Shown: in pieces, positions 17,419 to 38,489 of the stretch | How positions within the stretch are numbered: position 1 is the stretch's first letter | Layout of the letters: every line of letters begins with the position of its first letter | Origin: Fodinibius salsisoli | GTDB lineage: Bacteria; Bacteroidota; Rhodothermia; Balneolales; Balneolaceae | Assembly: GCF_026229185.1 (NCBI RefSeq) | Contig: NZ_JAGGJA010000001.1 | Location: forward strand, 1 to 64,000 | DNA: 64,000 nt | Direction of reading: 5' to 3' | Program-made: the position numbers and the translations under genes | The notes under the pieces: model-generated | What the model saw: only the letters and a program-made list of their open reading frames with translations | Database searches by the model: none | What the model was told of the DNA's origin: nothing

Positions 17419-17607
17419 CTAATGACAGGAACACACCCGTTCTAAAATTTTTGTAATATGTAATAGGCTTTCTAAAATCAACTCATCAGACTTTTCTTTA
17501 TTTAGGCATGAGTATCGATTCAGTAATCGATCCCAAAAGATGGAAAGAAATAACAAAACCTTACGAGCAAAGAACTTTGGCTTCAGAATGAAAAACCTAT
17601 ATTTCAT
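17419..17607 (-). CDS. Small ORF coupled to the antitoxin-like gene
   Basis: A 62-aa frame whose ATG overlaps the stop of the antitoxin-like gene (ATGA), the spacing typical of toxin genes after antitoxins. The product is basic and rich in Phe and Leu, but does not look like a RelE/ParE toxin, which would also be longer (about 95 aa). It may be a truncated or replaced toxin, a new small protein, or chance. There is no room for a full-length toxin before the gene ending at 17357. Confidence 0.3.
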   Translation of the reverse strand: MKYRFFILKPKFFARKVLLFLSIFWDRLLNRYSCLNKEKSDELILESLLHITKILERVCSCH

Positions 17608-18095
17608 TCTGACAAGCGTTCTCTAATAGAGCGAATTACCTGGTCTCCCGGTATTGTTTCGACCTCACCATTTTCTATCTCGTCCAACCTTCGGTCCGCT
17701 TCTTCGGCCCACGCTTGTTCAATCTCAGGATCAGGTGGACGGAGCGTTTTTTGAATGGCTGTTCTTATTTTAATCCGTTCGGTGTCGGAATAGGTTGCTA
17801 TTTCCTCGATGACTTCTGTTAAAGTCATGGGCTCCTTATTGGTGAATTGCTGCCGAGTATCTCCCGTTTTTTTGTCTTTAAACAAGCGATATAATGTGTT
17901 ATGTATGTCTTCGCTGGGAATGAGCGCACAAGAGCCGTGATGAACACTATCAATGCGTCGTTGAACTTCATCTTCCCAGGTTTCTTGAATGTCAGAATCA
18001 TATATAGACAGGCTTTCCATAATATATTCAGAAAACAGCAACAGATAATCGATGGGAAGCATATCAAGAACGTCAAGGACTTTTTCTTTGCTCAT
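17604..18095 (-). CDS. Tandem addiction-module antitoxin-like protein
   Basis: A 163-aa protein made of two copies of the 'putative addiction module component' (CHP02574) pattern, which is normally about 75 aa. Copy 1 ends with ETWEDEVQRRIDSVHHG then ALIPSEDIHNTLYRL. Copy 2 ends with QAWAEEADRRLDEIENGEVE then TIPGDQVIRSIRERL. Such antitoxins pair with RelE/ParE-type toxins. Here only a 62-aa frame follows, so the toxin is missing or unusual. A stand-alone antitoxin could neutralise a toxin elsewhere or stabilise the element. It lies between the mob genes and the BREX operon, on the minus strand. Confidence 0.7.
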   Translation of the reverse strand: MSKEKVLDVLDMLPIDYLLLFSEYIMESLSIYDSDIQETWEDEVQRRIDSVHHGSCALIPSEDIHNTLYRLFKDKKTGDTRQQFTNKEPMTLTEVIEEIATYSDTERIKIRTAIQKTLRPPDPEIEQAWAEEADRRLDEIENGEVETIPGDQVIRSIRERLSE

Positions 18096-18535: not shown

Positions 18536-20575
18536 TTAACCTTCTTTTAAATAAGTGATTTCACAACCCTTACACTTTCTAACTTCCTGGTAATGGTCCG
18601 CGATATCATACCAGCCGTTTGTTTTTTGGAAAATATCGAGACCTCTACCTAAGATTATTTTCCATCCATTATCTAATTGAATTGAACGGTCATGAATTTC
18701 CTCATCAAATTCATAGGTAAACTGAACCCCGATTGGGTCAAGCGAATCCATCATATCAGAGAAAGCCTCTTTGGCATTCTCAATGTAATCCTCATTGTTA
18801 TTAGTCTTTAAATGGATACTAACCTCCTCTTCAGGCTGTTTCAGATCTGCTACTAAGCGTGCAAACTCCATGAAATTCTTCAACTGGTAGGGAAGACGAA
18901 TGTAGGGATCAACTACCTCTATCTCTGAAGCTCCTTTTAGATAAATACCGAATAGCTTTTTATAGCTGATACCAGTCTGATTTTCTCTGATTATCTTTTG
19001 CCCCGCTTCCGGTTGGACCGTTTCTTCTTTTTCTTCATTGGTTGATTGAGCAGGAATATTCTCTCCGTCTTCACTATCCCCTGCGTCTCCACCAGCCGGT
19101 ATATCTAGTTTAAAGTCCCCGTATTCAATAACTTCCAAGGTTTCTGTCTTATGGACTTTCCCGTCAGAAGTCTCGTATTGGAACTTAATTATGTCATCAT
19201 TAAAGGTTTCGTCCATTTTCCGAAGCTGGTCCTTAACCCGCTTTCGACATTCAATCGCGAAATCAAGCAGTTCTTTGCCTTCTTTTTCGTCAAACTCCCC
19301 ATGAGGATAAATGACTTTTACTAATCCAGAAAAAGTCTTCTCAATAGCCGTTTTATCCCGGGTGGTTATGCTATCAGATAACTCAAAGAATTGTTCATAG
19401 GACTTCATGTAATCTTCTTTACGAAGTTCCTTCATGACCTCAGCGAGATAGTCAACTATAAAACCATAGTCACTGGTAAACATTTCATTGCGTAGTTTCT
19501 GGACCTCCCAGCCGGGTAAATAACAGTGAACACGGTCAAGGAATGCTGAGTCGTAGTATTCTTCGGGAAGTGCCTCAAAGAGATCTGCATGACGTAACAT
19601 GTAGGGTACTGAATGATTCGTATTACCTACATAAACCATCGAAGCTTCTGCCTGAAAGACCTGAGTACCTCTTGAAAATGACTTATTAGCCATGTAGTTC
19701 TTCAGAATATCAACCAGGGCTCTATCTGTTCGTTTCTTCTTACCCGCGAACTCATCATAAGCAACGACATCCCAATAACCCACGAGCCCAATTTCACCAG
19801 TGTTATTGTTGATAAAGAGCTTGGCCTTAGTAACTTCCCCCCCTGAAATGAGGATCCCATGAGGAGAAAGCTCAGAATAGAGATGTGACTTACCAGTACC
19901 CTTTGGACCAAGTTCAATTAGGTTGTAGTTCTTCTCGGCAAAAGGTACTAAACGTGTTAACTGGAGAAGTTTAGAGCGATTCGAAAACCCCTCTGGGTTT
20001 AATCCAATGGACTGCATAAGCAGATCCATCCATTCCTCTTTGGTAAACTGCTTTCGAGCTTCTTTAAATTCTGAAAGATCAACGCCTGAAACTTGTATAG
20101 GCTTGAGCTTCTCAACAGTCCACGGTAACGAATCTCGCTCTTCAGAAACTTGATACCCCAAGGTGGCAATACACCAAACGCCGCCGGTGAGAAGCTTCGG
20201 GTGCTTTTTTATAAAAGAATCATTGATAGGAATCTGTTTTAACCCAAGATTCCCAAAGTAGGCTTCATACTGATCTTTTTTGTCATTCAGCTTAACGGCC
20301 ACCTTATCAATTATGCGATGAGCTCCACGTTCTCGTACAGTCGACTTGATAATCTGGGCCTCATCTCTGTGGACAAAGTGCTTTGTAATAATACTCTTAA
20401 CCGTTTCAACGCCCTCCTTAATCGTCTCCTCATCATCTGTGGCACAGTACTGACCCAACAGATACTCCAACACATAGGTTGGGATACTCGCATTACCCTT
20501 GATCAGACTTGTTAGATCCTTCCTAACGACTCTGCCTGCGAAATGTTCGTTTATTTTGTTGTTGAATGCATCCAT
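18536..20575 (-). CDS. brxL: BREX AAA+ protein BrxL, with MIT_C-like C-terminal domain
   Basis: A 679-aa protein. The N-terminal half carries the BrxL AAA+ ATPase: Walker A GPKGTGKSHLY (223-233) and Walker B VVAYDEFAG (270-278). The segment ALVDILKNYMANKSFSRGTQ follows. BrxL assembles into MCM-like rings on DNA and is needed for phage exclusion in type 1 BREX. An acidic linker (about 490-525) leads to residues 536-679. There SYKKLFGIYL, VVDPYIRLPYQL, EIHDRSIQLDNGW and ILGRGLDIFQK match, in order, the MIT_C (PLD-like) domain of eukaryotic MITD1. No Lon serine-lysine protease region is evident. Lies 3 bp after pglZ. Confidence 0.85.
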   Translation of the reverse strand: MDAFNNKINEHFAGRVVRKDLTSLIKGNASIPTYVLEYLLGQYCATDDEETIKEGVETVKSIITKHFVHRDEAQIIKSTVRERGAHRIIDKVAVKLNDKKDQYEAYFGNLGLKQIPINDSFIKKHPKLLTGGVWCIATLGYQVSEERDSLPWTVEKLKPIQVSGVDLSEFKEARKQFTKEEWMDLLMQSIGLNPEGFSNRSKLLQLTRLVPFAEKNYNLIELGPKGTGKSHLYSELSPHGILISGGEVTKAKLFINNNTGEIGLVGYWDVVAYDEFAGKKKRTDRALVDILKNYMANKSFSRGTQVFQAEASMVYVGNTNHSVPYMLRHADLFEALPEEYYDSAFLDRVHCYLPGWEVQKLRNEMFTSDYGFIVDYLAEVMKELRKEDYMKSYEQFFELSDSITTRDKTAIEKTFSGLVKVIYPHGEFDEKEGKELLDFAIECRKRVKDQLRKMDETFNDDIIKFQYETSDGKVHKTETLEVIEYGDFKLDIPAGGDAGDSEDGENIPAQSTNEEKEETVQPEAGQKIIRENQTGISYKKLFGIYLKGASEIEVVDPYIRLPYQLKNFMEFARLVADLKQPEEEVSIHLKTNNNEDYIENAKEAFSDMMDSLDPIGVQFTYEFDEEIHDRSIQLDNGWKIILGRGLDIFQKTNGWYDIADHYQEVRKCKGCEITYLKEG

Positions 20576-20578
20576 TAT

Positions 20579-23080
20579 TTAAAAATCATCAAAGTCATTC
20601 GTGAATGAAATATTAACAGTATATGGGAAGCGATCATACTCGATCCACTTGTTACTTCCTTCCACCTGTTCTTCCAGTGTCAAGTAAATAGTTTCATTTT
20701 TATATTCATTTTTTGCCTTACTGGAAAGGCGGAATTTGTACTCATACTCTCGATCTTTAGCATTTTTCGAGTCAGAGTCAAATGTATAAGTCATTACATC
20801 ACTGAGGGTTTCGCCACTCTCACTCTTAAACTGAACCTTTAATGTTCGTCCGAGTATCTTCTCCGAAGTAGGCTCATGCTGATAAAAACTAACACGCTGA
20901 ATATTAGTACTTATCTTATTATTCCGTTTGTTTAATACATCCACATCGACCTTTTCAACAGTATCTTCCCGCTTTTTCTTGATATGAATCAAAGGTACAA
21001 TTGTCTCCTGCAAGGTGGCTCCGCCGTGGACAAACCGAGACCCGGCTCCCTGAACACGTAAACGATTTATGCCTTTTGGAATTAAAATCTCAATATCTCC
21101 TTCAATACCTACTTCCGAAGAGTCATACTTAAAAACACTTTCATTATGAGCGAGGTTATTGCCAAGAACAAATCTGCGGTTTGTTTTTATGATATCACCT
21201 GAGACCTCCGCATCAGCAAAGTCACTCTCCTCTAACACATCATTTTGATAGATAAAACCGTGATCAGCAGTTACAATAATATTATACCCTCCCATATTTG
21301 TGGCCTTCTTGACAAGATCTACGAGAAAGCTGATTTCATCTTTTGCAGCACCAATTACCTTTTCTTCTGAGCTTTTATCGTCTCCAAGCTTATCGATTCG
21401 ATTATGGTACACGTATATCAAATCGTGACTGGTAACCAGCTCTCGGGCCTCATCACTTTTTGATGCCATTTTCATCATATCTTCGGCATCAATGACAGTG
21501 GCATCAACACCAGAATGGGATTTCAGAACTTTCTCTCGTTGACGAGAGCCTTTGGTACTGTCTCCATCGATTAATATGTCATCCGATTCATCAAACGAAA
21601 GCTTATTGTGTGGAAGCAAGAAAGCCATTCCAAGCTTTGTATAAGATGGTAGGGATGTCACCTGATGGTCTAGCGAGCTGTCAAAGCGATTTTCTTTCTG
21701 CATCAACTCATGCAAAGAAACACCACATTCATAGCGAAGGGCATCAGAAATGATGACAAACAAACGTGTATTCTTATTGATAAAAGGTTTGACGTCTCGC
21801 TTAAAGAAGCTTGTTTGAGCGTTATTTGAAACGGGCCATCCTTCCGTTTCATCCAGTGTTCGTTGCCAGGCATCACTGATATTAAGCAGCCAGTTGTTAC
21901 TGTATGCTTTGTTCACCTCTTTATACAGAGGATTAAGTACATTATTCTGATTCGTGGCACGGTACTGTTCAATAAAAATTCGATAATATTGATCGATCTT
22001 ATACCACTCAGAGGTATATCTTTCCACACCTTCATCAAAATGAGATATGACTAACTGTTCTGTATCATTTACTGCTTCCAGCAGGTTAAATCCAACAGTA
22101 AGAGCGTTATAGAAAGCTTCATAGCGGGAAAACCAATACTTTGACTCTCGCTCTTTGATAACTGCTTCCAATCGTTGCCTATCCACACTGTCATCGAGAA
22201 TACCGCGAATGAGCTCTGATATAATTCGTTGATCAATGAGTTCAAAGAGATCGTCATCAATGACTTCATCCAAACTAACGTCATTGAGGATATCTTCGAT
22301 ATGCAGATCAAATTGAATCCGATTAGAAATCGCTTGAAAGTCATCCTGAAAAGAGAGTGTATCCTTCCAGGTAGAAATCATGACCTCAGACTCCTTATTT
22401 ACCACGGATGAAGAGGCTGTAGGAGAGAAATTCTTTTGGAATACTTCAAGTAAGAAGTCATAGATAGAAGGCTCTTCGTGGGTATATCCAAACTTTTTGG
22501 CTACTTCATGCCAAAAAATATCCTTGAGTTTAAATCGCTCCAGTTCTCGTTCTATAGATTCATGCTTTTCATTGACAAAGGCCGAAGCGTAATTACGTAA
22601 ATACTCATTCAGGGATAACATCTTTGCCTGAAAGACTACCTGAAGTAGTTTCAAAGAAAGGAGATGATCCCCATCCTCTTCCTGAGCAATTTCTTTAAAA
22701 GCAGCAACCCGTTCTTTGTTTTTGAAGAATTCCAGATGCTTACTCATCCACTCTTTGTAATGATATCCTAAACCCACCTCCTGCAAGTAAAGAGCTTCTT
22801 GATCGGTGTGGTAGACGTGGTGAGCTAACTCGACATCTAATAACCAGTTCTCCTTATTCTCGGGTTTTTCTTTAGGTATATACAGCAAAAACTGTTGGCC
22901 AGGCTCTTCTAATAAAACCTGGACTTTTACTTCCAGCTCATTGCCCTCTACTTGTACCTTTTGAGCATTAGAGAGTTCAAGGCCTTCGTACTCTTTTGTA
23001 AAAGCCTGCTCTGCATCGTACCAGATTAGGATACGATGTTTATCAAGTAGCTTTTCTATAGATTGTTTAATCTTATTCAT
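20579..23080 (-). CDS. pglZ: BREX alkaline-phosphatase-fold protein PglZ
   Basis: An 833-aa member of the PglZ type A family, a core component of all BREX systems. An N-terminal helical region precedes the alkaline-phosphatase superfamily domain. Metal-site motifs are FVIISDALRYECG (441-453) with the catalytic-site alanine/threonine region after D446, and IVTADHGFIYQND (about residue 615), whose D and H bind metal. The exact reaction in BREX is not established; phosphatase or nuclease activity has been proposed for the family. Length is normal. It follows the cold-shock/zinc protein by 31 bp and is itself followed by brxL at 3 bp. Confidence 0.92.
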   Translation of the reverse strand: MNKIKQSIEKLLDKHRILIWYDAEQAFTKEYEGLELSNAQKVQVEGNELEVKVQVLLEEPGQQFLLYIPKEKPENKENWLLDVELAHHVYHTDQEALYLQEVGLGYHYKEWMSKHLEFFKNKERVAAFKEIAQEEDGDHLLSLKLLQVVFQAKMLSLNEYLRNYASAFVNEKHESIERELERFKLKDIFWHEVAKKFGYTHEEPSIYDFLLEVFQKNFSPTASSSVVNKESEVMISTWKDTLSFQDDFQAISNRIQFDLHIEDILNDVSLDEVIDDDLFELIDQRIISELIRGILDDSVDRQRLEAVIKERESKYWFSRYEAFYNALTVGFNLLEAVNDTEQLVISHFDEGVERYTSEWYKIDQYYRIFIEQYRATNQNNVLNPLYKEVNKAYSNNWLLNISDAWQRTLDETEGWPVSNNAQTSFFKRDVKPFINKNTRLFVIISDALRYECGVSLHELMQKENRFDSSLDHQVTSLPSYTKLGMAFLLPHNKLSFDESDDILIDGDSTKGSRQREKVLKSHSGVDATVIDAEDMMKMASKSDEARELVTSHDLIYVYHNRIDKLGDDKSSEEKVIGAAKDEISFLVDLVKKATNMGGYNIIVTADHGFIYQNDVLEESDFADAEVSGDIIKTNRRFVLGNNLAHNESVFKYDSSEVGIEGDIEILIPKGINRLRVQGAGSRFVHGGATLQETIVPLIHIKKKREDTVEKVDVDVLNKRNNKISTNIQRVSFYQHEPTSEKILGRTLKVQFKSESGETLSDVMTYTFDSDSKNAKDREYEYKFRLSSKAKNEYKNETIYLTLEEQVEGSNKWIEYDRFPYTVNISFTNDFDDF

Positions 23081-23111: not shown

Positions 23112-26100
23112 TTAGTACTGTACATACTTTGGATCATGATTTGCGCCACAACCACATTTGCCGCATTCCACATTATCACAGATTAGCCAATTACAATTAT
23201 TGCAAGTTTCGCATTCTCTACTGTCCAGGATTTTCTTACATCCGCGGCAGTGTGTAAATCTAATAGGGTTTCCATGGTTTTCACAACTACTATTTACACA
23301 ATTAAATAATGGAACCGCATAGTACCCAAGTTGATTAGGGACATAACTTTTGGGACGCAAAATTTCACCGCACGAATAGCAATTTAGCCTATCAAGAATT
23401 GTGTTCATTCTATTCAGCCATCCAGCTAAATAGATGAACACCAATCGATCTAATTGCTTATCAAACAATTCATTCAATTCATTCAATTCATTCAATTCAT
23501 TTAGTGTCCATTCCTTAAAAGGAAGTGACAAATCCACATTATCATTTACCCCCACACATAAATCATTCTGACACCAATAAAGATTACAGGATTCACCGGT
23601 GGGTTTATTTGAATCACTGTCATAAAATTGTTGTTCCTTCCAAAATCTCCCCTCACAGTAAATATCTAATGTTGCACCTTTACTTATATAATGGTTTCCA
23701 TCTGTGTAATACCTCGAAATATTTTTCCGCTGCCATAATTCAGCTCCACGAACTTTTTTTCTACTATTGCATTTTTTAACGAGCCCTTTTAATGAGAAAA
23801 TCTGATTAAATGCATCCTGGGTTAAATCTTCGCTTTTTAAGAGGTTGAAATGCTCTTTTAAAACCCGATTCATTATATTCATAAGTTGATTACGATTTTT
23901 AAATTCATCTGTAATGAATTTTCTTACTAACAATGAACTGAGTTGCACAGTATCAATTGATTTGAGTATCTCAACCAAAAACTGCTTAGGGAGCTTCCCA
24001 TTATGATGGAGGGAAATCAGATACTTAAATAGCGTAAGCTGAATTGAATATTTCTTTCTTTTTAATAGCTCATTTAAACTCTCAATATTGGAACTTTCGT
24101 TGTAATTCTTTAAAAAGTTCTTAAGAATAAAGAAGTCTGATTCAGCACCAGATACTTCAAAATCGACAACCTCTTCATCAATAATAGTTATTGTGGACGT
24201 AATGTTTCCCTTATTTATCTCAATTTTGTGTGCGAGACTCTCGGCTAAATCAGGATAATGTTTTACTACAAAGTTTATCACATCATATGGAAACTGGTTT
24301 ATAATATTACCTAATACTCTTTCCATTAATGATGCAGAAAGCCTTCTTAAAGAGTAACTCCCTTTTAGAAGTTCTAATAGCTTCCCATTCTCCTCAAATT
24401 GATAGTGTTCTAAGGCCTTTTCGATCATTCTTGGAGAATCGACCTTATCAATAATATTTAAGAGAGGCAGTTTTTCTTTCTTCTCTTTTATCAATTGTAC
24501 TAAACCTTCAATACATGCTTTCTCATTTACTGATTTTACCTTCTCAACTTGAGTAAGCAAAGTATCCAAATCATTTAGATTCAAACTTGAAATGAAATTT
24601 GAAATAAATACCTCAGGAAACTTTGATTTCTTACTTGAAAAGACTTCTAAAGTATCTAAAAAATCGTGTATAGATATTTTAGCGGGATCTTTAAAAAGCT
24701 CTTCTAAGATGACGTTTTTTTCGGTTTCACTTAGATGTTCAATTAATGATTTATACTTATAAATCTTAGCAGGAGGAATACGATGAAGTAATTCCTTTTT
24801 AAGAAAATCGAATGGAACTAAATTGTATAGTTCTTCTACTTTTAAAAGGCTTCTCTCTTGATCAAGAGTATAACCATAATGCTCTTCTAACACCTTATAC
24901 ATTTTAGGTGTAACTTCAGCATTTGGCTTGTTTCCAATTTCAAAGCCTTCTTTTGAGAGGATTTCTAAAATTGAAGTAGTAGAATCGTTAAACCCAGAGG
25001 CAACTTTAAATAACCGTTTAGACTCATTTGTAGTTAAACTTAAAAAGTCATCAAAATATCTAAGGAAAGCTTCTTTAAAATTTTCATGAGCATTTAGGAT
25101 TTCAAATGGAATAATTTTAACTAGTTCTTTTGTAGAATTATTACTATCAAACTCCCAGTTTTGGATCGTAATATTTTGAACTTCTGCATTTGGCCATTTC
25201 TTTAAAAGTATTAATTTTTCTTTGTCACTTAACTCTTTCGCATACTTTCTAAAGTAGTTTAAACGCTTGTCCTCTTCTAATCTCTCAAAGACAGGAAGTC
25301 CATTCTTAACTGCTAGGCTGGGTTCAATTTCTTCTAAAGCTTGTTCAAAAAAGGAGAGGTATTTCTTTCGCTTGAGTTTATTGTGAAGGTCAATTATCTG
25401 TAAACATGAAGTGAGAAATGATTCTGAGGCATTCTCAAGTAAAAATTCTGCTGAATCTTCTAAACAGCAATCAATAAATATTTCCTGCACCTTTCTTTTT
25501 TGTTCCTCATCCTTAATCTGCTGTATAGCATAATATTTCTCTTTAGGGACCTGTAAACTCCCATTTTTACTAAGATTGTCGGATATGACAGTCACTAATA
25601 TTCGATCAGAATCATTATAAAGTCTTGAGATTCTCTTAATTTCGCTTATAGTCAGTCTTTCAGAAAACTTATATAATATGGATTTATTTATTTTATAATC
25701 ACCGGAATAAACCCTTGAAATAGTTTTATTAGCAAAATCTATTTGAACACTTTTAGTTACCCATGCTTCAAAAAAAAGCTCATCATCAAAATCATGTTCG
25801 ATTTTGCTAAATATTTCCTCTTTAAGATGATCAAATGTTTCAAAGACTTTCACCAAGCCAAGTAGATCTTCCTTTGGAATCCCATTACTTTCGTATTTCT
25901 TTTCAACTATCCTTATCAGAGTTTGATCATCAAAGTTATAATCATTGAATTTCAAAAGATTCTTTAAAGAAAGTAGATGAGCATATTGAATCAGATGTTT
26001 TTGTTTGAATGGAAAATCTTGTCTTGGGCGTAGCCAATCAAGTTCACTCCAGCTTCGCATTTTCTGACTCCTTTCTTTCCTTATATCATAAAATCCCTCT

Positions 26101-26660
26101 TTCCAAAGTATTACTGATGTTTCTGTATCAACATCTTTTTCTATCTGTTTAAAAATCTCAAGGATTTCATCCTTGTCAAAAAGAGTATATTTTCTAATTA
26201 GATCATTTACCTTTGTACAAAAAGGCGATATTAAATCAGTATGGTTATTCTTAGCAAATTGAAGGTTCTTTAAAATTAAATGATGAATTTCTTCTTTCGA
26301 TTTTTTCCGGAAAAATAATTTTAAAGCTTGGGTAAAAACATCCAGACTTCTTTTTCCTCCGTACCTTGTCTTCCTTCGGTTCCCTTTTATTATTATGGTC
26401 GAATCTTTACTCAGAAGGGTAATAATACTATTATATTGATCCGTATCTAATGGCGTTACTTTATATGCCATTTTTTTATCCCTCTTTTCGTCGTATCCCT
26501 TCTCAAAATGAACAACCATACCCTTTTTAAATGCTGTTTGGGGATCAACTGCATTAGTATAATATAGAAAATAATCTTCCTTATTGGGTGCTCCAATAAG
26601 ACCAAACTTTTTCTCTCGATTAAACCATTTGATAATGCCTATTGCTTTCTCTTGACTCAT
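23112..26660 (-). CDS. Cold-shock domain / helical-repeat / zinc-ribbon protein in BREX operon
   Basis: A 1182-aa protein I cannot assign to a described BREX family. Residues 1-72 form a cold-shock-like domain (GIIKWFNREKKFGLIG, then DYFLYY), a nucleic-acid-binding OB fold. Residues about 75-1000 are Lys/Glu/Leu/Ile-rich and look like long alpha-helical repeats. The last 100 residues hold several zinc-ribbon cysteine pairs: CYSCG, CVNSSC, CRGCKK, CETCNNC, CDNVECGKCGCG. The layout suggests a large RNA- or DNA-sensing scaffold. The gene is much more AT-rich than brxC or pglX. It sits between the AlbA-type ATPase and pglZ within the operon. A 9-bp microsatellite occurs near the 3' end. Confidence 0.7.
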   Translation of the reverse strand: MSQEKAIGIIKWFNREKKFGLIGAPNKEDYFLYYTNAVDPQTAFKKGMVVHFEKGYDEKRDKKMAYKVTPLDTDQYNSIITLLSKDSTIIIKGNRRKTRYGGKRSLDVFTQALKLFFRKKSKEEIHHLILKNLQFAKNNHTDLISPFCTKVNDLIRKYTLFDKDEILEIFKQIEKDVDTETSVILWKEGFYDIRKERSQKMRSWSELDWLRPRQDFPFKQKHLIQYAHLLSLKNLLKFNDYNFDDQTLIRIVEKKYESNGIPKEDLLGLVKVFETFDHLKEEIFSKIEHDFDDELFFEAWVTKSVQIDFANKTISRVYSGDYKINKSILYKFSERLTISEIKRISRLYNDSDRILVTVISDNLSKNGSLQVPKEKYYAIQQIKDEEQKRKVQEIFIDCCLEDSAEFLLENASESFLTSCLQIIDLHNKLKRKKYLSFFEQALEEIEPSLAVKNGLPVFERLEEDKRLNYFRKYAKELSDKEKLILLKKWPNAEVQNITIQNWEFDSNNSTKELVKIIPFEILNAHENFKEAFLRYFDDFLSLTTNESKRLFKVASGFNDSTTSILEILSKEGFEIGNKPNAEVTPKMYKVLEEHYGYTLDQERSLLKVEELYNLVPFDFLKKELLHRIPPAKIYKYKSLIEHLSETEKNVILEELFKDPAKISIHDFLDTLEVFSSKKSKFPEVFISNFISSLNLNDLDTLLTQVEKVKSVNEKACIEGLVQLIKEKKEKLPLLNIIDKVDSPRMIEKALEHYQFEENGKLLELLKGSYSLRRLSASLMERVLGNIINQFPYDVINFVVKHYPDLAESLAHKIEINKGNITSTITIIDEEVVDFEVSGAESDFFILKNFLKNYNESSNIESLNELLKRKKYSIQLTLFKYLISLHHNGKLPKQFLVEILKSIDTVQLSSLLVRKFITDEFKNRNQLMNIMNRVLKEHFNLLKSEDLTQDAFNQIFSLKGLVKKCNSRKKVRGAELWQRKNISRYYTDGNHYISKGATLDIYCEGRFWKEQQFYDSDSNKPTGESCNLYWCQNDLCVGVNDNVDLSLPFKEWTLNELNELNELNELFDKQLDRLVFIYLAGWLNRMNTILDRLNCYSCGEILRPKSYVPNQLGYYAVPLFNCVNSSCENHGNPIRFTHCRGCKKILDSRECETCNNCNWLICDNVECGKCGCGANHDPKYVQY
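23467..23502. repeat. In-frame 9-bp tandem repeat (about four copies)
   Basis: The unit AATTCATTC is repeated four times (the last with one change) and encodes repeated Asn-Glu-Leu just before the zinc-ribbon region of the 1182-aa protein. Changes in copy number would alter linker length without breaking the frame. Confidence 0.85.
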
Positions 26661-29965: not shown

Positions 29966-30955
29966 TTAATCATTATTGGAAGAACTATTCCCCTCAAGAA
30001 GTTCAACTTTAGCATCAGCTTTATTGAAATATTTCTTAATCCATCTAAATGATTCCAAATTATCGTTGATAATTGATATTGTTAACTCAATTTTCTTCTT
30101 ATTATCCCTTATTTGAATAGCATCATTCCCAAAGATATCACTATACTTTTCTCTATTTGCGATAAGATTTTCATAGGTATATGTTGCTTGATGAAGATAA
30201 GGCAAAACTTTTCTCGCTTCTTTATGAGGAATACTTTTTAAGCTAAGTTCTTTTAATGGGAGGATTAGTTCCTTGTATGTCTTTGTAGTATCAGCATCAT
30301 CCCGGTTATTCACCCATTTTAAAAGAATTGCATCAAATGCTGTGAAGAAATCATCTTTCTTGCTTTCATCTTCCTCAACCTTTCCTAATAGTTCGTCATA
30401 AAAACGAAAGATTTTGTCTGTCGACTCTACCCAAGACAATTCATTCCTATATGCATTAGTACTAAAATTGTTGTGATTAATAATAGCATGTTCCATTTGG
30501 CTATTAATACCATTTACGGCTCCACTCAATTTTTTGATTATTTCAAAGCTTTTTGGTTCATGCTTCTCCAATATTTTATGAACATCTTCAATTATATTCT
30601 GACTATAAAACGCAAAGCTCATTTCCGTAACTTTATTGAAAACATAATTTCGTTTACTAATATCTTTTAGTTGTTTTGAGAGCTCTTCAAATTCTTCAGC
30701 CTGCTTTTCTATTGATTTTAAGGTCTCATCAAGTGCCCCAATTAGATAATTTCCCCTTTGTTTTAATCTTTTTTGTTCCTTTCTATACTCATAAAAAACA
30801 GTTAGAAACCACCCAAGAGAGAAGATTCCTATTGATACAAGGACTGAGAAAACCGTATCAGAACTTAAGTCACTAAAATAAGTTTGCGCTGAAATGATTA
30901 GCCATTCAAAGAATCCAGCATCTTTATTTTGGAATATTAAATACATAAAGATCAC
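29966..30955 (-). CDS. Membrane-anchored coiled-coil protein in BREX operon
   Basis: A 329-aa protein with a hydrophobic span (TVFSVLVSIGIFSLGWFLTV, about 34-53) followed by a basic stop-transfer stretch (YEYRKEQKRLKQR). A coiled coil then runs from about residue 65 to 105, and the remainder is a mostly helical cytoplasmic domain. The frame can start at a GTG overlapping the pglX stop (GTGA) or at an ATG three codons later (30946). The overlap shows that it is translated with the BREX genes. I do not recognise the family. The architecture suggests a membrane-bound partner or effector, possibly working with the PD-(D/E)XK protein directly downstream. Confidence 0.6.
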   Translation of the reverse strand: MIFMYLIFQNKDAGFFEWLIISAQTYFSDLSSDTVFSVLVSIGIFSLGWFLTVFYEYRKEQKRLKQRGNYLIGALDETLKSIEKQAEEFEELSKQLKDISKRNYVFNKVTEMSFAFYSQNIIEDVHKILEKHEPKSFEIIKKLSGAVNGINSQMEHAIINHNNFSTNAYRNELSWVESTDKIFRFYDELLGKVEEDESKKDDFFTAFDAILLKWVNNRDDADTTKTYKELILPLKELSLKSIPHKEARKVLPYLHQATYTYENLIANREKYSDIFGNDAIQIRDNKKKIELTISIINDNLESFRWIKKYFNKADAKVELLEGNSSSNND

Positions 30956-33900
30956 CGTACCCTACTCCCGTCTACCCAATCAAAGTCTGCTACTTTCTTT
31001 TTCTTCTTTTTATCGTTGACGCTTCTAATCTCTTCTACGGCCTGACCGAATAAGTTATAGTTCACCAATACCCCATCATCCAGATCCATCTCGATACGTT
31101 CGGAAGCCAGGGGATAAAGGATCTCCCGCTCGTAGGTTTTGCAGTCTTTGATCATCTCATTGAGCTTGTCAATCTCTTTGGTGGCACTTGCTTTTTCACC
31201 GGTAGACCCTGACTGCTCTTGGTGTTTCATTCGTTCCTTTCGGGTCTCAAGTTTTTCGATAAACTCCCGCAGATAGTTGTTTAAAATATTGTTGAGGGTA
31301 TCAGGGGTATAGCGATGCATATACACAAGCACGCTAAAATGTCCCTTGGGAGAAGTGAACTTCCAATAAATGGGACGCTTGCTGTACCGCTTGTAGTGAT
31401 CTCTATAAAAGCTTCTATCAAAATATTTGCGAATATCTCCTTGTTTGATATTTTCTTCCACAAATGCCAGGTTCTTTTGGAAATTTTCCTCGCCAAAACT
31501 GGCTTTCAGAAATTGATGGAACCGGGACACGATATCATCTTCAAACCATTCGTCGTCGAGGACGGGAATGATATTGTCATCATCAGACAGGTAGGTCACT
31601 TCGTCTTTGGACTTCTCCACCTTATTTAGATAATCCTCTAACGTCTCTCCCTGGTTGGCTAAAATGAGCCCCTCTTTGTCTAAGGAGTATCGGCCAAACA
31701 TGCAGCCAACGGCATAGCTGACAAATTGGGCTAAGACTTCTTTTGGTTTAAAAGACAGAGTCCCATCTTTTATTTTTGTTTCACTTTGCTGAATGGTGAT
31801 TTCCTTCAAAGGTATTTCAGGACTGATTTCACCATTTAAACCATATATCTCAATGAATTGCCGATTGAGTTGTTCTTCTCTACCGTGAAGTTTCTTAAAT
31901 CTATTAGACCAATATTGCGTATAAAGATCGAGTGTTTCTTCAATATCAACCTCAACAGGTTGTTCACGTTTTATTCGAATTAATTCATTTTGTTTAAAAC
32001 CCCATGTAGTCTCGTTTGAATACCAGTCTGATTTTGCTATTGATATACACGAATTTACAAGACTGATAATATCAACAGAGTGATTTTCAGAATATTTAAA
32101 AGGCAACCTATTAATATCCCCAACTTGAAAAGCCAAAGTAGGATTTATTGTTTTTAAAAACTCATGCGCCAATTTTGAACACATAAAACCTAATATGTAC
32201 TCTTTTGAGTACTCATCATCTTCTAAAAACATCGACATTCCATTCACATCGAAAGCAGCTCCATTTTCTAGTATTCTAACTCCAAAGAACGAGGAGCTGA
32301 GTAATGTCCATGTAATCCCTTCCTTAAAGTAGTATGATGTATTTCTAGTTATAGAATTTTCATAATTTTTTATAATGGCTCCATTGTCAGTCCAGTTTAA
32401 AACATCAATAATATTGCCATACCATTTTCTAAACTTACCTCCCTTATTATAAGGCACCCATTCGCGATCCATATTGTTATCTGAATTAATATCAGACCTA
32501 GTAAGATTTATTGCTGAGTCATTTACCTCATACCATTTCCGTAAGAAACGAGCATTTTTCCCAGTAGTCATTCCATTTCTTGAAGTAGTTACCTCTGATA
32601 ATGGAGGGTAGGTTTCAAATAAGTCAAAGACTTTTTCAGTTACCCAATACCCAATAGGTCTTCCAGGTATCTTCTCAAAATTCTCTTGGTCTGCAACATG
32701 GAACCAATAACAATCAGGATTATTTATAGCCTCAAGTGTTTTTAGGGGCTGATTTTTTGCGCCTTTAAAATCACTTAATCGGATGAAATTTCCTTCATTA
32801 TTTTTAAGTTGTTCTTTTCTGATCGTAAAAGTACATACAGGAACTGTCGCCCCGTCAAATCCTGAATACTCTAGTTGTATCAAACTATTTATGCAGTGAT
32901 TATCAATGATCTTCGTACGAAGATCTTCATAGCTTGATATAAACATCCATACAAAAGGAGACATGTAACCAGTAAGACCTTCTTCCTTTGCAAGTTCTAA
33001 GCATCGGACAATGAAAGTAGCAAATAGGTCAGATTTTGTTTCTGAATAGTTGTTTTCCAGAAAGTTCTTCAAAGTTTTATTCATTCTTTTACCACCAACA
33101 TAAGGAGGATTGGTAACCACTAAGTCATACTTTCTACTTAAGTGGTCATAAATCTTTGCCCGATGACTATCCTGTTCTTCAAATATCGTACCCTCCCGAA
33201 TCTCTAAGTCGTCCGCTTCTTCCTCGGTTATATTAATAAGAGAGCCTAACGAATCCGCACTTTCTAATTTCTCATCATCCTCAAAGGATGTTATGTGAAC
33301 AATATTCGGTACCACACCTTTAGAAAAGAAGCGTCGCTGATATTCCCGGGCTTTAAACATAAGACTGAGTGAAGCAAGCTGCGCAGCCCGTTCATCGATT
33401 TCTAAGCCGTAAAGGTTATTTTTAATAATCAGTTCTGGAATTTCGGAAGGGGGATATCCTTCTTCTTCATACATGCTGTAGAAAAGATCAAAAGCATAAG
33501 ACAAAATGTGACCCGACCCTGCACAGGGATCCAGAAACGTAATCTCTTCAATTTTCTTGGTATCTCTTTCAGGGATCTGTTCCGGAGATGGAGGTTTAAT
33601 ATAGAAGTCCATTTTATCCTTCAACGATGAGGAAGGATGCATCTCAAGCCAGTATTGGCCCAAGGTGTTGTCCGTCATATACTCCACGATCCACCGGGGC
33701 GTAAACAGTTGGGTAGCCGGACCTATTTCTTCAGGCTTGTACTTTTTCTTTGCGCTAATCAGCTCTGAGTTTTTCTCCGAGATATAGTATTGATACAGCC
33801 AACCTAACACCTCAACCTGCTGGCAATCTTCGGCAGACATGCCTTCTACCACATCACGAATGATGGAAAACTCACTAATCAGATCATCCGGTAAAAGTAA

Positions 33901-34395
33901 CTCGGTATAGTCATCAATAGGCTCAAACAGAAATGGAAAAATCTCATGGAGATGGTTACAGGCCCCAATCAATAACAGCCGGTAAGCTTCATTTTCCGGA
34001 TTACTGGTACTCGTGCGCCCATCCAGGATATCCATGACCTGCTGTTGATCGACCTTCAGCTCTCCTGGAATATGTCCGCCCATGGCTTCCTGCAACAGCT
34101 CTGGACTTACCTGTCCATTCTCCGGTGTAAGAACCGACAGTTGGAATGGCTGAAATCCATTGGCATCCATATAGCGCAGGGCTACAAAGCGGTTAAACCA
34201 GGTATAGGCCATTTTGTCAATTAATTGCTTACGGCCATACTGGCCCAAGTCTTTTTTGAGATCCTCAATGATAGAGGCTTTTGCACGTAATTCACTGGTA
34301 TCCCCCTCTAATACATGATCTAATTTCGCTTCAACTTGTTTAAGCAGTTTACGGCGTGTCTCTTGTGCAAATTTTTTGAGTTTCTTAGTGTCCAT
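30952..34395 (-). CDS. pglX: BREX-1 adenine-specific DNA methyltransferase PglX
   Basis: An 1147-aa enzyme that methylates adenine in the BREX recognition site, marking host DNA as self. The SAM-binding motif FLDPCAGSGHILSYAF lies near residues 288-303 and the catalytic motif TNPPYVGG near 427-434, in the order of gamma-type N6-adenine methylases. The large C-terminal part (about 560-1147) is typical of PglX and probably holds the target-recognition region. A short low-complexity KKKKKK stretch lies near the end. Length is normal. The frame is intact, with no repeat that would suggest phase variation. Starts 9 bp after brxC. Confidence 0.93.
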   Translation of the reverse strand: MDTKKLKKFAQETRRKLLKQVEAKLDHVLEGDTSELRAKASIIEDLKKDLGQYGRKQLIDKMAYTWFNRFVALRYMDANGFQPFQLSVLTPENGQVSPELLQEAMGGHIPGELKVDQQQVMDILDGRTSTSNPENEAYRLLLIGACNHLHEIFPFLFEPIDDYTELLLPDDLISEFSIIRDVVEGMSAEDCQQVEVLGWLYQYYISEKNSELISAKKKYKPEEIGPATQLFTPRWIVEYMTDNTLGQYWLEMHPSSSLKDKMDFYIKPPSPEQIPERDTKKIEEITFLDPCAGSGHILSYAFDLFYSMYEEEGYPPSEIPELIIKNNLYGLEIDERAAQLASLSLMFKAREYQRRFFSKGVVPNIVHITSFEDDEKLESADSLGSLINITEEEADDLEIREGTIFEEQDSHRAKIYDHLSRKYDLVVTNPPYVGGKRMNKTLKNFLENNYSETKSDLFATFIVRCLELAKEEGLTGYMSPFVWMFISSYEDLRTKIIDNHCINSLIQLEYSGFDGATVPVCTFTIRKEQLKNNEGNFIRLSDFKGAKNQPLKTLEAINNPDCYWFHVADQENFEKIPGRPIGYWVTEKVFDLFETYPPLSEVTTSRNGMTTGKNARFLRKWYEVNDSAINLTRSDINSDNNMDREWVPYNKGGKFRKWYGNIIDVLNWTDNGAIIKNYENSITRNTSYYFKEGITWTLLSSSFFGVRILENGAAFDVNGMSMFLEDDEYSKEYILGFMCSKLAHEFLKTINPTLAFQVGDINRLPFKYSENHSVDIISLVNSCISIAKSDWYSNETTWGFKQNELIRIKREQPVEVDIEETLDLYTQYWSNRFKKLHGREEQLNRQFIEIYGLNGEISPEIPLKEITIQQSETKIKDGTLSFKPKEVLAQFVSYAVGCMFGRYSLDKEGLILANQGETLEDYLNKVEKSKDEVTYLSDDDNIIPVLDDEWFEDDIVSRFHQFLKASFGEENFQKNLAFVEENIKQGDIRKYFDRSFYRDHYKRYSKRPIYWKFTSPKGHFSVLVYMHRYTPDTLNNILNNYLREFIEKLETRKERMKHQEQSGSTGEKASATKEIDKLNEMIKDCKTYEREILYPLASERIEMDLDDGVLVNYNLFGQAVEEIRSVNDKKKKKKVADFDWVDGSRVR

Positions 34396-34404
34396 AGATG
34401 AAAC

Positions 34405-37400
34405 TTAGTCCAACAGTATATTGTGATTCTTATTAATGTGATCGATCATTGATTTGCGTAGCTCTTTCAGGTAGTCATCCACATCCTCTTCGGTTTCCAA
34501 TTCCTTCTTAGGAAAGGAAGGATGGAGGTTAGATTGCTTGATGAACATGCGCTTTGGTTCATCATCCTCTTCCGGCTGGGCCAGTTCGATCATCAAGTTG
34601 AGCTGATCCGTATATAAATGATTGCTAAGGCGACTACGCTGGTCCCGCAGGTTCCCGATAAAGCGTTCGTTTTTAGCTTTCTTCAACTCCTGTTGCAGTG
34701 GCCCCATGACCTCTTCTTTTTGCGCGTTGGAAAGTTCAGAAAACTCGTCCCGGCTTTTCAGATCCTCAATGGCTTCTTCATACCGTTCAATAGTCGCATC
34801 CTTTTCGCCCTTGAGCTCCAGCTTCACCCGTTCCTCCAGGGTATCCATCGCCTCCTTGGCTTCCCGCATGGTGGTCCCACGATACGGTGTTGAGTCTTCT
34901 TTGGCTTTCCTGAGTACTTCTTTCTCGTGGGCATCTACATAATCGAAATTCGCCTGATTGTAGGAATCAAACTGATTGAGCCGATCGTAAATCTCTTTCT
35001 GTCCGCTGTTCATGAACTGCTTAATCGGATCAAGGTTGTCCTGCTTGATATCTAACAGGTCATCCTCCATGGATCCGATTTCTGTAATCAGCGTCGCATA
35101 GTCCATCTCTTTAATCTTGCGCAGCTTATCGGCCATCGGTTGTAGCTGTTCCACAAACGGATAGCTCTGCTTTTGAGCGATGAGGTTACTTACTGTCTCC
35201 AGCTCATCTATGGCCTTCTCCTTAAATAAAGTAGCAGCATCCTTAGCTTCATTATGTGGATTGGATTCGTTAAACAGATCTTGGTGGATCTTTTTAAGCC
35301 TGCGCACCTGCCCTTGATCAAATTCAATCTGTGGATAGACCAGGGTATTGGCATGGCTTCGATTGTTCATCAACGCACTTTCAAACTCGGAATCCTCAAT
35401 GATATTGGAATCCTGTTTTGCAATAATTTTCCCACGCTTAAACAGCATGGCCACCATACACCAGATCGCAAAATCAGGCCAACCATAAGGTTTCTGGGAA
35501 AATTGTTCTTTCAGATTGGTTAGCGTCGTGCGTTCATTCATTTTCTTCCGGCGCTGAATAAAGTTCATAACCTCATTTTCCGGCGGAGTCATAGATGCTT
35601 CATCTTCTCCAAACAGATCATCCTGCCGACCTTTCATAATGCTTTTTAGCCTGCTTTCATCAAAGGTCGTATCCCCGAGCATTTTGAGCTTGCTGTATGC
35701 CAACTTCACCAGATCCTGAAACGCATAAATCACTTTGGTCTTCCCATCGCTGGTTGAGGATACCTGGTGCTCAGTCCCATTCAGATAAACTGTCGATTGG
35801 GCTAGCATTTCATTCAGGGTATCCAGCATTTCCCGTTTACGCTCTTGGTTTTGCTGACCCTGTTCAAAGAGGATCTGCTTTACCCGGTCCTTATTAGAAG
35901 TAGCCTGATTCTGTTTGATATATTTTTCGGTCTGCAGATAAAGACGCGCTTCTTTTACAATGCGATCATCCGGGGCCAACTTCATCAGCATATGGGTCTG
36001 ATTGCCCATAGAAAGTCCCTGGAAGTAGCTTTCGTTATCGTAGTTCTCACTATTGGGCGTAACCAACTCAACGGTAAGCTCCTTCTCTCTTCCGTAGAGG
36101 GTCCCATCCACCTTGCGAGTATATTCGTAATACTGCTTGTTATCCTGAAACTGCAGACGGGTTTCTTTAATCGTACCATCAAAGAGAAGACTGCTAAAGA
36201 GGTCCGTTACATCTGAGGAGTTGATCTCTGTATTCTTGATATCCTGTTTGATATCCTTCTCGATATCGGTCATGAATTCATAGGTATCCCCGCCCTTACG
36301 CTCAATATAATTTTGTTGCTCCAGCAGGCTCAGGGCTTCTTTCACCTCTTCCTCATGGGTATTCGGATTCACATTGAGGTGATTCAATGTGAGTACCAAT
36401 ATATTACGAATCGTCGTTTTAAAGCTGTCATAATACTTCACTAAGAAGAGCGCTTTAAGGATACGAACCGCCAAGGGGCGATTAGACAATTGCCGCTCGG
36501 CCAAGATAATAGAGTTCTGTATCTCTGTCCGCATGGTGGCTCTAAGCCCTTCAAAGAGCTGATCAAAACTGATTAAGCTACGCTCATCAAAGCCATCAAT
36601 ATCTTTAAGCACCTCTTGGAATACACCCAGCATGGACCGCTCACCTACAGAAGCATGCTTCCCCTGGAATGCGTTATGCTTGGCAAGGGTTTTTATGGAC
36701 TGCTGAAACAGATCAAACTGGTATGGTATGAAGGGGTATTTCGCAATAAACTCTTCTTCATCTTCATAGTTCTTAAACTGGACCCCCGCTTCAGAGAATG
36801 ACAAGAGGGTGGCCAGATTATCTTTTTCTTTCTGCCAGACGCTTGAAAGTTGAGACTCCCCTTCTGACCCTTTAGCTAGTAGCCGTTTCTCAATGACTTC
36901 ATCCACATTTGCAGAAGTCAGCGGCAAACGAATTTTAAACCGTCCCTGAATCTTCGAAAAGTCGTCAGATTGTGTAGCCGATTCATCCCCAACCACGCTT
37001 TCGAGATCCTCCTGTGAGGTCACTACAATCCACGAACGACCATCACACTTCGTAGCCAATGACTCTGCTATTGTTTGCAGGTTCAGCATCAGCTTGGTGT
37101 TATCTGCAATATACTGGCCCACTTCATCTACATAGAAGTTCAAGCGAAAGTCATCCGGCTTCTTCTGTAAATACTCATCGACCTTATGGGCAAAGTCCTC
37201 AATGGAATACTTTCGGGTATCTTCGAATTTGTCCAGAATGCCTTGGTACTTGGATGGATCCGCATCATAAATATCACCACATACCTCTGCAATGGCATCT
37301 TCAATCATGGGATCTACATAGTCATTCCGAGCATCTTCCCAGGGTTTACCAAACTCATTTTCGAAGCCCTCCTTAAAAGCCTCATAGTTTCCTTCTTTAC

Positions 37401-37902
37401 TTAACCACCGCTCAAATTCAGCAACATGGGGTTGAAACCCATAGAAGCCTTGATGCTCGTAGAGCACCTTATAAAAGACTTGCAGTATAGCGTTATCATC
37501 TTCCTTGGAAGTGATTTGAGCCTGCTGGTCAATATTGAAAAGGATACTTTCAGATGGGATCCGGGTCCCGTTTAATATATCTCCTTTAAGTTTGGCATCA
37601 CCCTCTACTTTATTAGCAAACAGTTCACCAAGGTGCGTACCATTAACCGTGCGGTCTTCAAGTACGTAACTTAAGATCTTCAGTAGGTGTGATTTACCAC
37701 TTCCAAAGAAACCCGAGATCCAGACCCCGTTAGCACCCTCATAATTATTATACTGCTCAAAGAAATCCGCCAGTTTCAAGGAGATTTCATTGGTTATAAC
37801 GTACTCTTCTACCTCTTGCAGAATATGAGATTTATCATCAGCCTTGATGACCGTTTCTATTGGCCGAGCAAAGTCGTCTGCGAATAGTTGTTTAAGTTCC
37901 AT
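34405..37902 (-). CDS. brxC: BREX P-loop ATPase BrxC
   Basis: A large ATPase (about 1165 aa) common to type 1 BREX (DUF499/BrxC family). Walker A is GFFGSGKSHLLKIL, near residue 65. A Walker-B-like region FYVDEVGQYIADN lies near 255, and an arginine/sensor region with KIQGRFKIRLPL follows. The C-terminal half has long charged helices, probably coiled coil. The frame can be extended two codons to a TTG, but the ATG at 37902 (MELKQLFADDFARP) is the natural start and leaves 2 bases after the brxB stop. Expected to power the BREX complex with PglX and PglZ. Confidence 0.92.
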   Translation of the reverse strand: MELKQLFADDFARPIETVIKADDKSHILQEVEEYVITNEISLKLADFFEQYNNYEGANGVWISGFFGSGKSHLLKILSYVLEDRTVNGTHLGELFANKVEGDAKLKGDILNGTRIPSESILFNIDQQAQITSKEDDNAILQVFYKVLYEHQGFYGFQPHVAEFERWLSKEGNYEAFKEGFENEFGKPWEDARNDYVDPMIEDAIAEVCGDIYDADPSKYQGILDKFEDTRKYSIEDFAHKVDEYLQKKPDDFRLNFYVDEVGQYIADNTKLMLNLQTIAESLATKCDGRSWIVVTSQEDLESVVGDESATQSDDFSKIQGRFKIRLPLTSANVDEVIEKRLLAKGSEGESQLSSVWQKEKDNLATLLSFSEAGVQFKNYEDEEEFIAKYPFIPYQFDLFQQSIKTLAKHNAFQGKHASVGERSMLGVFQEVLKDIDGFDERSLISFDQLFEGLRATMRTEIQNSIILAERQLSNRPLAVRILKALFLVKYYDSFKTTIRNILVLTLNHLNVNPNTHEEEVKEALSLLEQQNYIERKGGDTYEFMTDIEKDIKQDIKNTEINSSDVTDLFSSLLFDGTIKETRLQFQDNKQYYEYTRKVDGTLYGREKELTVELVTPNSENYDNESYFQGLSMGNQTHMLMKLAPDDRIVKEARLYLQTEKYIKQNQATSNKDRVKQILFEQGQQNQERKREMLDTLNEMLAQSTVYLNGTEHQVSSTSDGKTKVIYAFQDLVKLAYSKLKMLGDTTFDESRLKSIMKGRQDDLFGEDEASMTPPENEVMNFIQRRKKMNERTTLTNLKEQFSQKPYGWPDFAIWCMVAMLFKRGKIIAKQDSNIIEDSEFESALMNNRSHANTLVYPQIEFDQGQVRRLKKIHQDLFNESNPHNEAKDAATLFKEKAIDELETVSNLIAQKQSYPFVEQLQPMADKLRKIKEMDYATLITEIGSMEDDLLDIKQDNLDPIKQFMNSGQKEIYDRLNQFDSYNQANFDYVDAHEKEVLRKAKEDSTPYRGTTMREAKEAMDTLEERVKLELKGEKDATIERYEEAIEDLKSRDEFSELSNAQKEEVMGPLQQELKKAKNERFIGNLRDQRSRLSNHLYTDQLNLMIELAQPEEDDEPKRMFIKQSNLHPSFPKKELETEEDVDDYLKELRKSMIDHINKNHNILLD

Positions 37903-37904
37903 AG

Positions 37905-38489
37905 TCAAAGTTTATAATCGTCGATATTAAAAGCTCTGTAGTAATTGTCGTCTTTTAGCAGCCCAAAAAGCTCAAGTGATTCCCCATTAAATACTCCTGG
38001 AAAAAACATAAGTGTTGGAATGTCTTTTACCGAACTCTGTAAATTGTTTAGTACCGTATGAGAACGAATAAATGGGAAGGTAGCCCCTACGCCGTGAATC
38101 ATAAGCAGATCATGATCTTTTGATTCAACCTGTTCTCTAATAGCCGGTATTAAACGCTCGTGTATGTTGATGGTTGATTGAAGAGCTTTCTTAAACTTCT
38201 TTTTGCTCTTCCTCTTTTCCACCATCAACATTTTTTCCAGCCCGATATGCTTTTCAACAAGCTTAATTGATAATTCAAACAAGTTGATTACACAGGGGTT
38301 GATTCCATTGTTCTTAAGTCTCTTCGTCAGATTATGGATCTCTGTATTTACATCCGTTTCTTGCGTTGGATTATAAGTGGATATCCAAAAGGGCACTTCT
38401 CCCCCCAATGCTTCCATGGACAAAAAAGTAGGTGTCGAAATCACCTCAAAAATGTGGTCAAACTTTTTATGTAGCTGCTCTTCAATCAT
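37905..38489 (-). CDS. brxB: BREX protein BrxB (DUF1788)
   Basis: A 194-aa cytoplasmic protein of the BrxB/DUF1788 family, essential in type 1 BREX but without a known enzymatic role. Family-like features are an IHNLTKRLKNNGINPCVINL segment near residue 50 and DLLMIHGVGATFPFIRSHTV (about 133-152), followed by LMFFPGVFNGESLELFG. The start overlaps the brxA stop by ATGA, and the stop is 2 bases before brxC, so the three are tightly coupled. Confidence 0.9.
   Translation of the reverse strand: MIEEQLHKKFDHIFEVISTPTFLSMEALGGEVPFWISTYNPTQETDVNTEIHNLTKRLKNNGINPCVINLFELSIKLVEKHIGLEKMLMVEKRKSKKKFKKALQSTINIHERLIPAIREQVESKDHDLLMIHGVGATFPFIRSHTVLNNLQSSVKDIPTLMFFPGVFNGESLELFGLLKDDNYYRAFNIDDYKL

Follow-up and report, generated by a model that had tools for sequence, protein, structure and literature searches.

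A BREX BrxL protein with a MITD1-like PLD-fold domain in place of the Lon-like tail

The BREX locus and the domain layout of BrxL

A type 1 BREX locus lies on the minus strand of the window (the whole 64,000-nucleotide stretch of Fodinibius salsisoli DNA analysed here). It runs from 39091 down to 18536 in the order brxA-brxB-brxC-pglX-(four further genes)-pglZ-brxL and holds the type 1 gene set. The features are given below, where A2 denotes a set of 93 domains made up of the window BrxL and 92 of 113 loci (the best 80 of 569 from one search and 33 from a scan of viral-contig records).

38486..39091, minus strand: brxA (PF08849, 7.3e-39)
37905..38489, minus strand: brxB (PF08747, 6.6e-42)
34405..37908, minus strand: brxC, with three Pfam BREX_BrxC domains
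30952..34395, minus strand: pglX, BREX-1 adenine methyltransferase (NF033452, 1268 bits, cut-off 500)
20579..23080, minus strand: pglZ, BREX-1 PglZ type A (TIGR02687, 694 bits, cut-off 270)
18536..20575, minus strand: brxL, 679 aa, with BrxL_N, ATPase and MIT_C
19016..19105, minus strand: low-confidence linker between the ring part and MIT_C, residues ~491-520 (block pLDDT 64, 41 and 53 in the full-length model)
18545..18973, minus strand: MIT_C (PF16565) PLD-fold C-terminal domain, residues 535-677 (Pfam E=1e-45; MITD1 4A5Z E=1e-21; fold Z 21.7)
18896..18910, minus strand: DPYIR, residues 556-560 (D556 in 93/93 and R560 in 90/93 of A2)
18671..18694, minus strand: HxRx4D motif H628, R630, D635, the PLD HKD motif with Lys changed to Arg (H and R in 93/93 of A2)
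18635..18646, minus strand: RGLD, residues 644-647 (93/93 in A2, biased by the scan pattern; 23/24 HMM-found domains)

Other reading frames at the locus, all on the minus strand, were also recorded. Between pglX and pglZ, 28445-29929 encodes a 494-aa protein that matched the PADLOC candidate PDC-M36A (1e-23) and has a C-terminal D...EFK stretch resembling, by eye, a PD-(D/E)XK nuclease. The adjoining 329-aa protein (29966-30955) has a hydrophobic stretch at about residues 33-56 and is possibly a membrane partner. The operon also holds a Schlafen/AlbA_2 protein (26693-28387) whose C-terminal domain is Fic-like, and a protein of 1182 aa (23112-26660) whose N-terminal cold-shock domain match fell below the Pfam cut-off and which had no further confident family assignment. 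Downstream of brxL, 17604-18095 encodes a small protein with two Unstab_antitox stretches.

The brxL reading frame was single and uninterrupted over 679 aa. Pfam placed BrxL_N at residues 10-141 and BrxL_ATPase at residues 152-461, and MIT_C scored 155.6 bits against a cut-off of 25 with positions 1-142 of its 142-position profile covered. These three were the only Pfam domains above cut-off, and the N-terminal MIT domain of MITD1 was absent. The NCBIfam model TIGR02688 assigned the protein to BrxL (620 bits, cut-off 329); TIGR02653 reached 607.7 bits, below its cut-off of 628.25, with a match ending at 487 of 675. The PADLOC (2023) BrxL model PDLC02508 spanned residues 1-678. A phmmer comparison of the whole protein with all PDB sequences returned four distinct sequences at E≤0.01; residues 6-468 matched Acinetobacter BrxL 8EMC (E=6e-153) and 8EMH (E=2e-152), and human MITD1 4A5Z and 2YMB matched residues 528-668 and 513-669, respectively (E=1.4e-21).

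The initial annotation had read 18536-18970, which corresponds to residues 536-679 and the stop codon, as a MITD1-like domain standing instead of a Lon protease domain. The strings that it quoted were located at residues 537-546, 554-565, 626-638 and 641-651 of BrxL, and the Pfam check for PF16565 found MIT_C on the tail at residues 535-677 (E=1e-45). Its statement that the Lon domain is absent was borne out, with no Lon family match, Lon-C included, in Pfam, NCBIfam or phmmer against PDB, and with the 8EMC sequence match stopping at residue 468. The swap thus stood, although the usual Lon-like BrxL tail is itself described in the passage cited as being without catalytic residues (PMC10164562). 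Where other BrxLs have this catalytically dead tail, the window BrxL carries a PLD-fold MIT_C domain on an apparently flexible linker.

Three other explanations of the tail were considered and set aside. Chance resemblance to MIT_C or MITD1 was ruled out by E=1e-45 (Pfam) and E=1e-21 (PDB), a degraded Lon domain by the absence of Lon family matches and the different fold, and a frameshift or artefact by the clean 679-aa frame and the presence of MIT_C on 24/47 BrxL-ATPase places.

The AlphaFold2 model of the MIT_C domain, built from 93 sequences, had a pLDDT of 94.8 and a pTM of 0.90. The comparison with MITD1 that had been suggested at the outset showed a PLD-like fold, with MITD1 structures as the top Foldseek matches (E=6e-16). 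Superposition of MITD1 on the domain model gave a VIA Z of 21.7 and an rmsd of 1.5 Å over 144 aligned residues at 32-34% identity. After MITD1, the VIA ranking fell to Z 8.8 for the PLD nuclease domain of SauUSI (7CLG; 2.9 Å over 115), followed by phosphatidylserine synthase, phospholipases D, NgoAVII R protein (7.9), NucT (7.7) and FAM83B. Z values of 8-9 for PLD nucleases may reflect the common fold and are not evidence of function. SauUSI, an ATP-driven enzyme acting on DNA, has a single motif in each chain, as described in the part of PMC7913695 cited here, but it differs from the window tail in having HxKx4E with a real lysine, only 10% identity and a different ATPase.

In the full-length model, the ring part matched BrxL cryo-EM chains at 2-4 Å over ~480 columns (Foldseek). 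For 7 of the 24 BrxL chains listed, the alignment continued across the tail at an rmsd of 12-17 Å and was not counted as a tail match. Acinetobacter BrxL (8EMC, 8EMH) therefore has BrxL_N and the ATPase in common with the window BrxL, whereas its tail is described as Lon/RadA-like without catalytic residues (PMC10164562, passage cited) and the window tail is MIT_C.

Conserved residues of the MIT_C tail

The motif reads H628-D-R630-SIQL-D635 in the window BrxL, against the PLD consensus HxKx4D. The domains of A2 depart from that nuclease motif, with Arg at the Lys position in 93/93 and Asp at position 635 in 62/93 (N 29, S 1, G 1). The 24 HMM-found domains, a set without L024 (fragment), L025 and L026 (remote), L027-L029 (below cut-off) and G140:C51 (no locus), had H in 23 (Q in L015) and R in 24, with D in 20 and N in four at position 635. 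The remote L026 reads SDR, with the His replaced. L043 was dropped for a stop codon inside the domain. The invariance of RGLD, and of DPY..Q in the viral scan, is biased in the scanned loci because both were search patterns; H628 and R630 lay outside the scan pattern.

The motif aspartate changed between D and N at least 21 times on the 86-row tree, in which D or N was present in 83 rows. The window BrxL has D at 635, relatives L007, L011 and L016 have N, and human MITD1 has Asn at this position. The aspartate therefore appears dispensable in the MIT_C family, since D and N flip repeatedly and MITD1 has N, while H and R are nearly always kept. SauUSI, with HxKx4E, shows that variation is tolerated at the acidic position, and two of its chains together form the site, according to the passage cited (PMC7913695). 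Arg in place of the motif Lys puts catalysis by the tail in serious doubt, since the K758R mutant of PLD2 serves as an inactive control form in the work cited (PMC10942622).

We compared 11 Lon-type BrxLs with random draws of 11 MIT_C BrxLs at matched core divergence (mean core identity ~52%), counting D, E, H, K, R, N, Q, S, T, Y and C as polar. The Lon-type set was small (11, one phylum, MAFFT alignment only), and none of its members had a MIT_C match. The Lon-type tails had 14 invariant columns of 199, four of them polar. The MIT_C tails had 13-25 invariant columns, of which 8-15 were polar (324 matched of 2000 draws, 113 sequences), and a control with the 23 HMM-found BrxLs gave 10-17 polar invariant columns (434 matched of 3000 draws). 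The MIT_C tail thus had about three times as many invariant polar residues as the 11 Lon-type tails, and because this invariance exceeds that of Lon-type tails at matched divergence, the tail appears to be held like a functional site. On this comparison of sequences, the strong polar constraint suggests a working site.

Distribution of MIT_C tails

The survey of BrxL homologues for domain swaps, also proposed in the initial annotation, covered 394 genomes of the phylum. PF16565 was above cut-off in 26 of them and BrxL_ATPase in 40, and MIT_C was present on 24 of the 47 BrxL-ATPase places with E<1e-50 (hand count over the 394 genomes). In 14 control genomes, PF16565 was found in none and BrxL_ATPase in two. 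We examined 147 loci, at least six of which were repeat places from another search and three of which (L027-L029) were at chance level, and a BrxL core was present in 131 ORFs. The tree labels included Bacteroidota, Spirochaetota, Pseudomonadota, Thermodesulfobacteriota, Cloacimonadota and Myxococcota. The tail matched 25 of 72,556 plasmid records, mostly annotated as BrxL and including Rhodococcus and Arthrobacter, and none of 50,697 phage records. Among putatively viral contig records, a single-sequence scan gave no match and an alignment scan gave 33 loci.

MIT_C was also carried by proteins other than BrxL, namely L032, L033 (an IF2_N protein), L102 and L103 (no other Pfam domain). L032:6622-9465, on a Thiodictyon plasmid, encodes a dynamin-family GTPase with a C-terminal MIT_C, and the L102 ORF at ~6001-6444 in Kaistella joins an AbiEii nucleotidyltransferase to MIT_C. 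L022 looked, by eye, like a Sel1-type repeat protein. Two further arrangements were seen. In the viral-contig record L132 (ORF ~3803-4201), a PglZ-like part, recognised by eye, runs in frame into a BrxL tail with the BrxL core missing, which is either a natural deletion or a misassembly; and the plasmid BrxL at L031:7394-9435 seems to be broken, its annotation being split into several short pieces that include a stand-alone MIT_C protein.

A single origin of all MIT_C BrxLs was rejected on the BrxL core (p-AU 1.3e-10). Without the type-4-like L019, it was not rejected (p-AU 0.26), and the two results therefore indicate at least two joinings, not three. L019 grouped with short tail-less BrxLs on the BrxL core tree (100/99). 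The quick core tree placed the MITD1-like clade beside Lon-type BrxL, and the careful tree left this fork unsettled.

The gene run of L019 (L170:98-13069) comprises an Eco57I-type methylase, DUF4007, a small AAA protein, an SspC/BrxC-like ATPase, PglZ and BrxL-MIT_C; the contig starts just before the methylase, and a further upstream gene (e.g. PAPS reductase) is possible. A second genome (L177:1-10218) has a full-length counterpart of the L019 BrxL that is 66% identical and also carries MIT_C, with upstream ORFs resembling those of L170 in size and order and the first gene cut by the contig end. An Abditibacteriota plasmid (L176:1733-14383) has the same gene order with neighbours 23-31% identical, and its BrxL ends after the ATPase. 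With MIT_C on L019 and L177 and no tail in L176, MIT_C was therefore gained by, or lost from, type-4-like BREX too. Type-4 BrxL is stated to be without C-terminal extensions in the passage cited (PMC12839542); the L170-type operon is called type-4-like here by gene content. The run in L170, L177 and L176 mixes type-4 BREX parts (DUF4007, SspC/BrxC-like ATPase, PglZ) with an Eco57I-type methylase.

Candidate roles of the tail and its relation to human MITD1

Replacement of the BrxL tail and the link between PF16565 and BREX are already in print. A 2026 survey reports, in the part cited, that in 1030 of 2913 type-1 BREX taxa an 'HKD-endoDNase' bearing an HRD motif takes the place of the Lon-like domain (PMC12839542). 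Its BrxL-HRD and the window BrxL agree in belonging to type 1 BREX, in a PLD-superfamily tail for the Lon-like one, in the Lys to Arg change and in the same HxR, and from motif and position we infer that the published HRD domain is the MIT_C domain. The survey infers retained activity, whereas the aspartate is labile in the MIT_C family here, and its main text does not mention MITD1 or MIT. PF16565 is listed among BREX families beside BrxL, crediting Goldfarb 2015, in a passage of PMC12715929 that gives the family name and does not treat fold, motif or relation to MITD1. In one open library we found no link between MITD1 and BREX, which may still be in print, nor the labile aspartate, the constraint comparison, the MITD1-BrxL clade grouping or the type-4-like MIT_C case.

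By analogy with known systems, the protein may be a DNA-loaded ring with paired, phosphodiester-acting PLD-fold MIT_C tails. As with Acinetobacter BrxL, BrxL_N and the ATPase would form a ring loaded on DNA, and the tails, with one HxR motif per chain, would pair, probably across a tail-to-tail double ring. The paired site would then act on a phosphodiester and most likely nick or cut phage DNA held in the ring. BfiI has one active site built from two chains. Acinetobacter BrxL rings are reported to pair through their tails (PMC10164562, passage cited), and nuclease action has been proposed independently for BrxL-HRD (PMC12839542, part cited). We counted in favour of a nuclease the conservation of H and R, the polar constraint and the place of the SauUSI nuclease next after MITD1 in the fold ranking, and against it the Arg in 93/93, the labile aspartate, the loss of His in L015 and L026 and the charge of -10. 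The presence of H and R alone does not mean a nuclease, because human MITD1, which is reported to bind membranes, keeps both. The net charge of the MIT_C domain, -10 in the window BrxL, is unfavourable for binding DNA in general; it averages -6.8 over 118 bacterial domains and -5.4 over 22 of the MITD1-like clade, and is -3 in human MITD1. Because the motif Lys is Arg, we put this account of a ring with paired, phosphodiester-acting tails at just short of an even chance.

The tail could instead be a pseudo-enzyme, bringing rings together in pairs and holding on to DNA phosphates without catalysis, and so take over from the dead Lon-like tail. This is rather unlikely, though the replaced tail is described as lacking catalytic residues yet mediating ring pairing (PMC10164562, passage cited), and the Lys to Arg change in 93/93, the D/N lability and the occurrence of MIT_C and Lon-type tails on related BrxL cores fit it. 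The kinds of constraint differ, however, with four invariant polar residues in the 11 Lon-type tails against 8-17 for MIT_C, and the nucleophile-like His is rarely lost. Envelope targeting, in which MIT_C would bind phospholipid head groups and bring the DNA-holding ring to the inner membrane at the site of phage DNA entry, was suggested by the initial annotation and seems improbable. It draws on the close homology to a MITD1 domain reported to bind membranes (PMC6015221, passage cited), on the retention in human MITD1 of the invariant polar set except the aspartate, and on the one fusion to a dynamin-family GTPase (L032). The envelope step nevertheless transfers one property of human MITD1 with mainly homology behind it; the domain is acidic (-10), the other fusions, to AbiEii nucleotidyltransferase and IF2_N, have no membrane theme, the HxR motif and a large invariant polar set are kept in the family, and PMC12839542, in the part cited, classes a tail that agrees in motif and position as an HRD-type endoDNase. 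Docking of another BREX protein (e.g. PglZ or BrxC) or a nucleotide signal, in place of DNA or lipid, in the conserved pocket might account for conserved polar residues without settled chemistry; unrelated proteins outside BREX carry MIT_C as well, and we regard docking as the least probable role. We therefore rank the paired phosphodiester site first and the non-catalytic clamp next, with membrane targeting as possible.

According to the passage cited, some BREX systems need BrxL for restriction whereas others do not (PMC12839542). A naturally occurring BrxL whose tail differs and is highly constrained offers a clean test of its role, in which H628 and R630 would be the residues that tell a cutter from a clamp or a membrane tether.

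The C-terminal domain of human MITD1 (4A5Z, 2YMB) is of the same family and fold as the window tail. Unlike the window BrxL, human MITD1 has an N-terminal MIT domain (PMC6015221, passage cited), no ATPase, and Asn at the motif aspartate. The trees were built without near-duplicates, and those of 86 and 64 rows also without the long rows L026, L032, L033, L022 and L103. In the careful 86-row tree, human MITD1 grouped with a BrxL clade of L002, L003, L031 and viral-contig loci (100/97), sister to the rest of that clade (95/73). In the 64-row tree, from which the long rows L019 and L031 had also been removed, human MITD1 and the clade were grouped at 100/100, with the human row inside the clade at low support (36/73). 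The MITD1 trees were unrooted, with one eukaryotic sequence and few columns, and the placement next to or inside the clade was unstable, so the direction of transfer is unsettled. Tentatively, the sequences are compatible with descent of the MITD1 membrane-binding domain from a bacterial BREX BrxL tail. One invariant PLD-fold site would then be at work in a ring for phage defence as well as in cell abscission, and MITD1 might have kept the binding or processing of a phosphodiester ligand of that kind; we consider this somewhat doubtful. Through the tie to BrxL, bacteria become a place to test where MITD1, a human ESCRT-III cofactor, came from and what it binds. Human MITD1 shares D556, R560, Q564, N567, H628, R630, RGLD (R644-D647) and R666 with the window BrxL, but not the aspartate, and was 50% identical over 135 residues to its best BrxL tail (L141). 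Mean path lengths on the 64-row tree were 1.43 between human MITD1 and the clade, 3.09 between the clade and other BrxL tails, and 4.30 between human MITD1 and other tails.
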